Positions 304 through 431 of a stretch of 64,000 nucleotides of DNA are shown in pieces. How positions within the stretch are numbered: the first letter of the stretch is position 1; each line of letters begins with the position of its first letter. The translations under genes were made by a program, and so were the position numbers. The notes under the pieces were generated by a model, which did not search any database, was not told where the DNA came from, and was given only the letters and a program-made list of their open reading frames with translations. The stretch is from NCBI RefSeq assembly GCF_036099295.1, contig NZ_CP107976.1:6262001-6326000 (forward strand), read 5' to 3'. Origin of the DNA: Streptomyces sp. NBC_00358 (GTDB taxonomy: Bacteria > Actinomycetota > Actinomycetes > Streptomycetales > Streptomycetaceae).

Positions 304-351
304 ATGCGTTTCGGGCTGCTTCTCCTTAGCTGCCGCGGCGAGGGCCTGTAG
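304..351 (+). CDS. leuA leader peptide (15 aa)
   Basis: A 15-codon ORF encodes [15 protein letters not shown]. Four consecutive Leu codons (CTG CTT CTC CTT) plus a fifth Leu just before the TAG stop make this a ribosome-stalling sensor of charged leucyl-tRNA, as in leucine attenuators. It ends 80 nt before leuA. Leader peptides upstream of leuA have been described for actinobacteria, and the S-C-R-G-E-G-L ending agrees with what I recall from Streptomyces. It also sits at the end of a longer in-frame ORF that starts at 163, but the ATG at 304 gives the classical short leader. Confidence 0.75.
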
Positions 352-431
352 TCGAGGCCGACCCCCTCCCCGCGGAGTCTGGCGTTGCGCCGTCGGCCGT
401 CCTTTCGGACATCCTGAGGAGCCCACGCATC
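304..431 (+). promoter_or_regulatory. Leucine attenuator of leuA
   Basis: Downstream of the Leu codons two stems compete. CCGCGGCGAGGG (333-344) pairs with CCCTCCCCGCGG (364-375), 12 bp with one mismatch. GGCCGAC (356-362) pairs with GTCGGCC (392-398), 7 bp. The second starts inside the loop of the first, so the two are unlikely to form together. A small GTCC-TTTC-GGAC hairpin (399-410) follows, just before the GAGGAG ribosome site (about 416-421). There is no U-tract, so control may act on translation as much as on termination. The architecture is seen directly; the mechanism is inferred. Confidence 0.6.

Follow-up and report, generated by a model that had tools for sequence, protein, structure and literature searches.

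The leu operon of enteric bacteria is controlled by an attenuator whose leader peptide contains four adjacent Leu codons, rare ones. In mycobacterial poly-Cys leader attenuators, a leaderless short open reading frame (ORF) with a codon run lies upstream of a biosynthesis gene; to our knowledge, these leaders contain no LEU pseudoknot.

The closest described system is the LEU element (Seliverstov 2005; PMC1262725), which combines a leader containing Leu codons, a pseudoknot, and a base stem between the Leu run and the leuA Shine-Dalgarno box. Its authors preferred a protein-binding role for the pseudoknot, and proposed the ML1624 orthologues as the binding proteins. Only leuA and a single B. 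longum transposase are named as sites in the available text of that paper. The same text, citing Craster 1999, reports that mutations in the S. coelicolor leuA leader had some effect, inconsistent with classical attenuation, and also states that mutations of the Leu codons left regulation uninfluenced; on this account, the 1999 mutants and the 2005 analysis left leuA control in Actinobacteria open. The leader peptide gene leuL1 of S. lividans TK24 was reported to be leaderless and to have no typical terminator, and the passages of that report available to us give its mechanism as attenuation in general, without a structure (PMC8079986). Leader peptides of leuA from C. glutamicum and C. diphtheriae have also been published.

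We analyzed a window of 64,000 nt from Streptomyces sp. NBC_00358 (contig NZ_CP107976.1). Region 304–431 of the window is, almost certainly, a copy of the published LEU element: both the leader ORF with a Leu run directly upstream of leuA and the conserved pseudoknot are present.

Results

The leader region of leuA

All features of the window given below are on the forward strand. A −10 hexamer, TAGGCT (288–293), was located 10 nt upstream of the ATG (304) of a short leader ORF (304–351; stop codon TAG, 349–351). This position appears compatible with a transcript starting at the leader start codon, i.e. with a near-leaderless arrangement. With the sole exception of L084, the leaders (141 of 142) had a TANNNT motif ending 5–10 nt upstream of the start chosen for them (the −10 motif was one criterion in this choice), and the control rate farther upstream was 0.06% per position. 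The peptide is identical to that published for leuL1 (PMC8079986) and, as the earlier note on this DNA had claimed, contains four adjacent Leu codons (CTG CTT CTC CTT, 316–327). leuA, assigned by NCBIfam as 2-isopropylmalate synthase (432–2183), is preceded by GAGGAG and separated from the leader stop by 80 nt. The Shine-Dalgarno region of leuA (CUGAGGAG, 414–421) is complementary to part of the Leu run (CUCCUUAG, 322–329), with a duplex energy of −11.4 kcal/mol.

A terminator scan of the window detected no terminator-like site in 150–640, and neither a terminator nor an antiterminator was found here. The earlier statement that a terminator T-run is missing stands. Searching the window against Rfam 15 (T-box, riboswitch) at gathering scores gave no match, nor did searching 200–520 at E up to 1. 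The small 4-bp hairpin that the earlier note had placed next to the ribosome site does exist here (399–410; GUCC/GGAC, −5.2 kcal/mol), but when the alignment of leaders described below (A1) was read by eye, it had no counterpart outside close Streptomyces relatives. The fold energy of the window leader was unremarkable (z −1.16; 27 of 200 shuffled sequences were as good); because fold energy alone was not unusual, the case for a leader structure was made by comparison.

Comparative analysis of the leader RNA

A DNA match to window positions 250–500 was found in all 121 genomes of the family at E ≤ 0.001, some covering only 45–60 bases. With a covariance model containing H1 only (the longer helix, see below), 141 of 148 genomes of the class gave a match at E ≤ 0.01; the presence in most Actinobacteria described for the LEU element thus holds at the level of this class. 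In a phylum-wide draw of 149 genomes, 13 matched at E up to 0.001: one belongs to family f16, and the other 12 come from the same class or nearer; all searches for the element were confined to the phylum. Conservation of the leader is far beyond chance. The genome of NBC_00358 itself carries two confident copies, the second of which (L176; C1, about 8299994–8300102, minus strand) is the LEU element upstream of a leuA paralogue; it encodes the leader MLPHELLLLGCRCGA and has a covarying H1 (CGCTGCGGGG/CCCCGCAGCG). Two weak model matches were also seen in this genome at 8037582 (E 0.15 and 0.35). Matches near E 1e-3 were often due to chance: L244–L246 sit within other open frames, and L247 and L239, which had no coherent leader when inspected by eye, were taken as chance.

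For comparison we used 142 distinct leaders, a set that leaves aside genomes already represented (within L054–L082), the outgroup loci, L090 (no LLL) and L149, for which the leuA frame could not be located. Of these leaders, 95 make up alignment A1; the 47 omitted are mostly from Streptomycetaceae, the others being the irregular or long-linker leaders L013, L017, L021, L031, L091, L093, L111, L124 and L139. The 5′ arm of H1 (333–343) lies within leader codons 10–14 and pairs with 365–375; the 5′ arm of H2 (356–362) lies in the H1 loop, past the leader stop, and pairs with 392–398. When examined in all 142 leaders, the 11-nt H1 5′ arm found a partner with at least nine Watson–Crick pairs in 139. 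In the 95 aligned leaders, 94.2% of H1 and H2 cells were paired (88.9% when shuffled) and 112 showed a double change (34.5 when shuffled), and neither value was reached in any of 500 shuffles. Double changes were seen at 14 of the 18 pairs, again unreached in 500 shuffles, and slid registers paired only 40–66% of the cells. Thus the stem covariation, for which an alignment of leuA leaders had been suggested as a check, is present. The residues of the leader peptide vary along with H1 (RG, RD, RS, RC), and therefore it seems to be the RNA rather than the peptide that is conserved there. In the alignment frame, the 5′ arm of H2 and the 3′ arm of H1 are 2 nt apart (5th–95th percentile) and the loop that crosses H1 is 10–32 nt long, a geometry that fits an H-type pseudoknot, which H1 and H2 can form as judged from these sequences. 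The two stems had been described as competing. This was wrong: H1 and H2 interleave as one pseudoknot, and both helices covary. More probably, a ribosome occupying the Leu codons competes with base pairing between this run and the leuA Shine-Dalgarno region.

RNAalifold, applied to the leaders, recovered H1 only, and a first swap test on the 142 leaders was weak, with scores of 18.5 for own, 16.8 for swapped and 15.1 for shuffled arms; own arms beat all 25 swaps in eight leaders and all 10 shuffles in 50. We attribute this weakness to the self-complementarity of GGCC and CCGG. In the 30 second copies described in the next section, H2 scored 19.9 with its own arms and 15.0 when permuted (0 of 5000 permutations), and H2 had played no part in choosing these copies except through its consensus sequence within the model. 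At the level of sequence comparison, the column count and the second copies settled H2.

Second copies and codon usage

Model searches yielded 35 further loci, of which 30 were used as second copies: L219, L220, L224 and L228 were further leuA copies and L239 was set aside as above. Eight additional matches (e.g. G342:C9, G356:C129, G341:C6 and G333:C9) fell outside this set. A further eight loci that were read included one copy of the leuB type (L248) and three of the leuA type, and the other four looked like chance. Eight related loci were also compared with Rfam, which returned no match at E up to 0.5. The 30 copies precede leuC (four), leuA2 (five), a small gene with leuB next in line (15; in the doubtful L237, counted in addition, a different gene comes after the small one), and a stand-alone gene resembling the LeuA dimerisation domain, here called the LeuA-domain gene (five). 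Family tests covered two LeuA-domain proteins and one fragment each of leuC and leuB, and the other copies were recognized by eye. NCBIfam placed the leuC and leuB fragments in their own families with scores under the full-length cut-offs, which is normal for partial sequences; for Pfam LeuA_dimer, L225 scored 27.9 bits (cut-off 24.9) and L233, at 23.9, was just under. As far as our searches show, the use of this module at leuA2, leuC, the small gene with leuB and the LeuA-domain gene is new: no LEU element at leuB or leuC was recognized in the open-access literature searched, and the sites at these four kinds of gene, the last two with altered codons, go beyond those named in the available text of PMC1262725.

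Which codons make up the run depends on the target gene. At leuA, leuA2 and leuC it consists of Leu codons; the leuC copies (L206–L209), each with its own LEU element, have leaders such as MRAPRRLLLRCRGGASI. At the leuB-linked and LeuA-domain genes it consists of Val, Ile and Leu codons. Examples of the leader peptides are MQWSVRILSCRGGAR, MRHIFVLRCRGGAR and MRSVLVLIECRGEAY for the leuB kind and MSRMLVVRRRSGV for the LeuA-domain kind. At the leuB-kind loci (L210–L214, L221–L223, L227, L231, L232, L234–L236, L240 and L248, with L237 before another gene), a small protein of about 25–50 aa, ending like ALQEAMDRRDNGGETGH or SLDLRDGGGQRPDDN, is conserved between the LEU-like leader and leuB. Two of its forms were scanned, and no Pfam family matched them.

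Codon choice in the leaders was strongly biased. CTT made up 253 of 516 leader Leu codons (49%); within leuA (51 loci, 1901 Leu codons) its share was 0.5%, so that it is enriched about 100-fold in the leaders. The final leader Leu codon among the 142 was CTT in 125, CTC in 17 and CTG in none. The leuB-type leaders, several of which are close relatives, contained GTA as 13 of 20 Val codons (11 of 575 in leuB), CTT as 12 of 22 Leu codons (13 of 489) and ATT as 7 of 15 Ile codons (5 of 206). Shine-Dalgarno pairing was considered as the cause of the CTT codons and rejected: genome-like CTG codons would pair equally well (−11.1 versus −11.3 kcal/mol), and ten outgroup leaders have the same bias (CTT, 16 of 38 Leu codons), which indicates that it is independent of both the pseudoknot and Shine-Dalgarno pairing.

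Pairing and accessibility of the leuA Shine-Dalgarno region

The duplex between the Leu run and the Shine-Dalgarno region had a mean energy of −11.3 kcal/mol in 138 leaders, compared with −6.0 for a coding control and −6.85 for the ten outgroup leaders. Own pairing exceeded permuted pairing overall (−11.3 versus −10.7; 0 of 2000) and in a pooled within-group permutation (0 of 2000). The within-group excess came from a mixed remainder group of 37 leaders (3 of 1000), and no named family clearly showed it (Streptomycetaceae 489, f84 449, f8 573, f100 685, f7 339, f96 312, f3 141 and f98 126 of 1000). In the column test, 76.1% of the cells were paired and 75.3% when shuffled (46 of 500). Only one of five measures stood out, that of double-change cells (19 versus 12.7; 9 of 500), and these changes were mostly at a pair that is unpaired in 66 of 93 leaders. 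Thirteen leaders of the leuB and LeuA-domain kinds, including the doubtful L237, paired with their own sites at −10.5 versus −8.6 kcal/mol when permuted (7 of 3000, relatedness being uncontrolled). For the base stem of the LEU element, the window sequence offers complementarity, and the Leu run is the predicted main partner of the site, but the pairing does not clearly covary.

Accessibility was predicted for folds on which the pseudoknot was imposed. When the Leu run was blocked, the mean predicted accessibility of the site rose from 0.15 to 0.36 in 129 leaders, whereas blocking four other segments gave 0.15–0.18; a gain above 0.1 was predicted in 80 of 129 leaders for the Leu run and in 10–28 for the other segments. 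In the window, the same blocking raised the prediction from 0.05 to 0.26. With a ribosome placed on the Leu run and H2 kept, the predicted accessibility was above that of the pseudoknot state in 93 of 129 leaders (failing in 36), and when 40 nt of coding sequence were included, 85 opened more and 44 failed. Plain folding of the window sequence with a ribosome placed at the Leu run did not open the site (0.04–0.09 unpaired, versus 0.18 when free). The output of the LEU element is most likely translational, as the Leu run can pair with the Shine-Dalgarno region of leuA; the translational control proposed in the earlier note thus stands as the favored model, but the pairing through which it would act does not clearly covary.

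Discussion

We consider the chances about even that the LEU element acts by ribosome-mediated attenuation without a terminator, with release of the leuA Shine-Dalgarno region as its output. The mRNA would begin at or adjoining the leader AUG. When charged Leu-tRNA is ample, the ribosome would read the CUU/CUC codons and leave at the UAG ending at 351, the H1/H2 pseudoknot would fold, and the vacated Leu run (322–329) would pair with the Shine-Dalgarno region (414–421), keeping leuA translation low. When Leu-tRNA is scarce, the ribosome would stall on the Leu codons and cover both the Leu run and the H1 5′ arm, which starts 5 nt past the last Leu codon; neither the pseudoknot nor the Shine-Dalgarno pairing would then form, and leuA would be translated. 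Stalling and site release are the steps that we infer; the leader, the pseudoknot, the bias toward rare codons, the lack of a terminator and the reuse of the module with other codons come from sequence and comparison. A stalled ribosome is favored as the amino-acid sensor because the codons switch with the target gene and rare codons are enriched. The more general reading, to which we give slightly less than even chances, is that the element is a codon-programmable pseudoknot attenuator, in which a fixed H1/H2 fold reads hungry codons just upstream and governs translation of the next gene without a terminator. If so, an exchange of the codons should change which amino acid is sensed, and if a ribosome reads the element, it would be a terminator-free, class-wide attenuator that can be reprogrammed by codon choice.

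An alternative that we consider unlikely is that the ribosome senses leucine while the output is transcriptional, the pseudoknot or leader translation governing Rho-dependent termination or pausing of RNA polymerase upstream of leuA. The pairing of the Leu run with the Shine-Dalgarno region without clear covariation is consistent with this, and in 9 of 16 leuB-type copies the small gene starts 114–334 nt past H1, far for direct masking. Leaders outside the class point the same way. In 10 of 15 leuA loci outside the class (L163, L164, L168, L170–L174, L181 and L182), the leader ends right after the Leu run (e.g. MNRRELLLLT*) and is followed by a hairpin and a T-rich stretch as judged by eye, and a terminator scan of three of them found a site in each; the same run and CTT bias thus occur there together with a hairpin and T-run. 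L166 and L169 have the Leu run and no such T-rich stretch, and no LLL leader was obtained for L165, L167 and L175. The ten leaders apparently act by transcription attenuation, which suggests an evolutionary switch of output. Against a transcriptional output in the window, there is no intrinsic terminator here, and stalling would free the C-rich 3′ arm of H1, favoring Rho under starvation, which is the wrong sign.

Less probable still is that a regulatory protein binds the pseudoknot, as preferred by Seliverstov (2005) with the ML1624 orthologues, and that the leader is secondary. A compact fold conserved across the class would suit a protein, as would leader mutations reportedly without effect or with an odd effect; the reported Leu-codon mutants (PMC1262725, as far as its available text goes), if valid for leuA, directly oppose the ribosome model and are the strongest evidence against ribosome sensing. 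However, the leader codons turn to Val, Ile and Leu at the leuB-linked and LeuA-domain genes while the fold is unchanged, and CTT is enriched about 100-fold; a protein-bound RNA would need neither the bias nor the codon switch. Natural copies with the same fold and other codons make the choice between ribosome and protein directly testable.

It is very unlikely that the leader merely delivers ribosomes to leuA by re-initiation or coupling, in an element that does not respond to leucine. Leader genes have been hypothesized to raise expression of the next gene (PMC4833913, in the text available), but here 80 nt separate the leader stop from leuA, and the Leu codons and the pseudoknot have been kept across the class. 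A classical enteric-type attenuator, for which the Leu run of the leader would speak, is scarcely credible, since the strict form is refuted by the lack of a terminator in 150–640 and H1 and H2 coexist.

Among the second copies, five loci (L225, L229, L230, L233 and L238) encode stand-alone proteins that resemble the LeuA allosteric domain; they lie downstream of this pseudoknot, and their leaders have Val/Leu codons. These proteins may possibly serve as a separate regulatory subunit.
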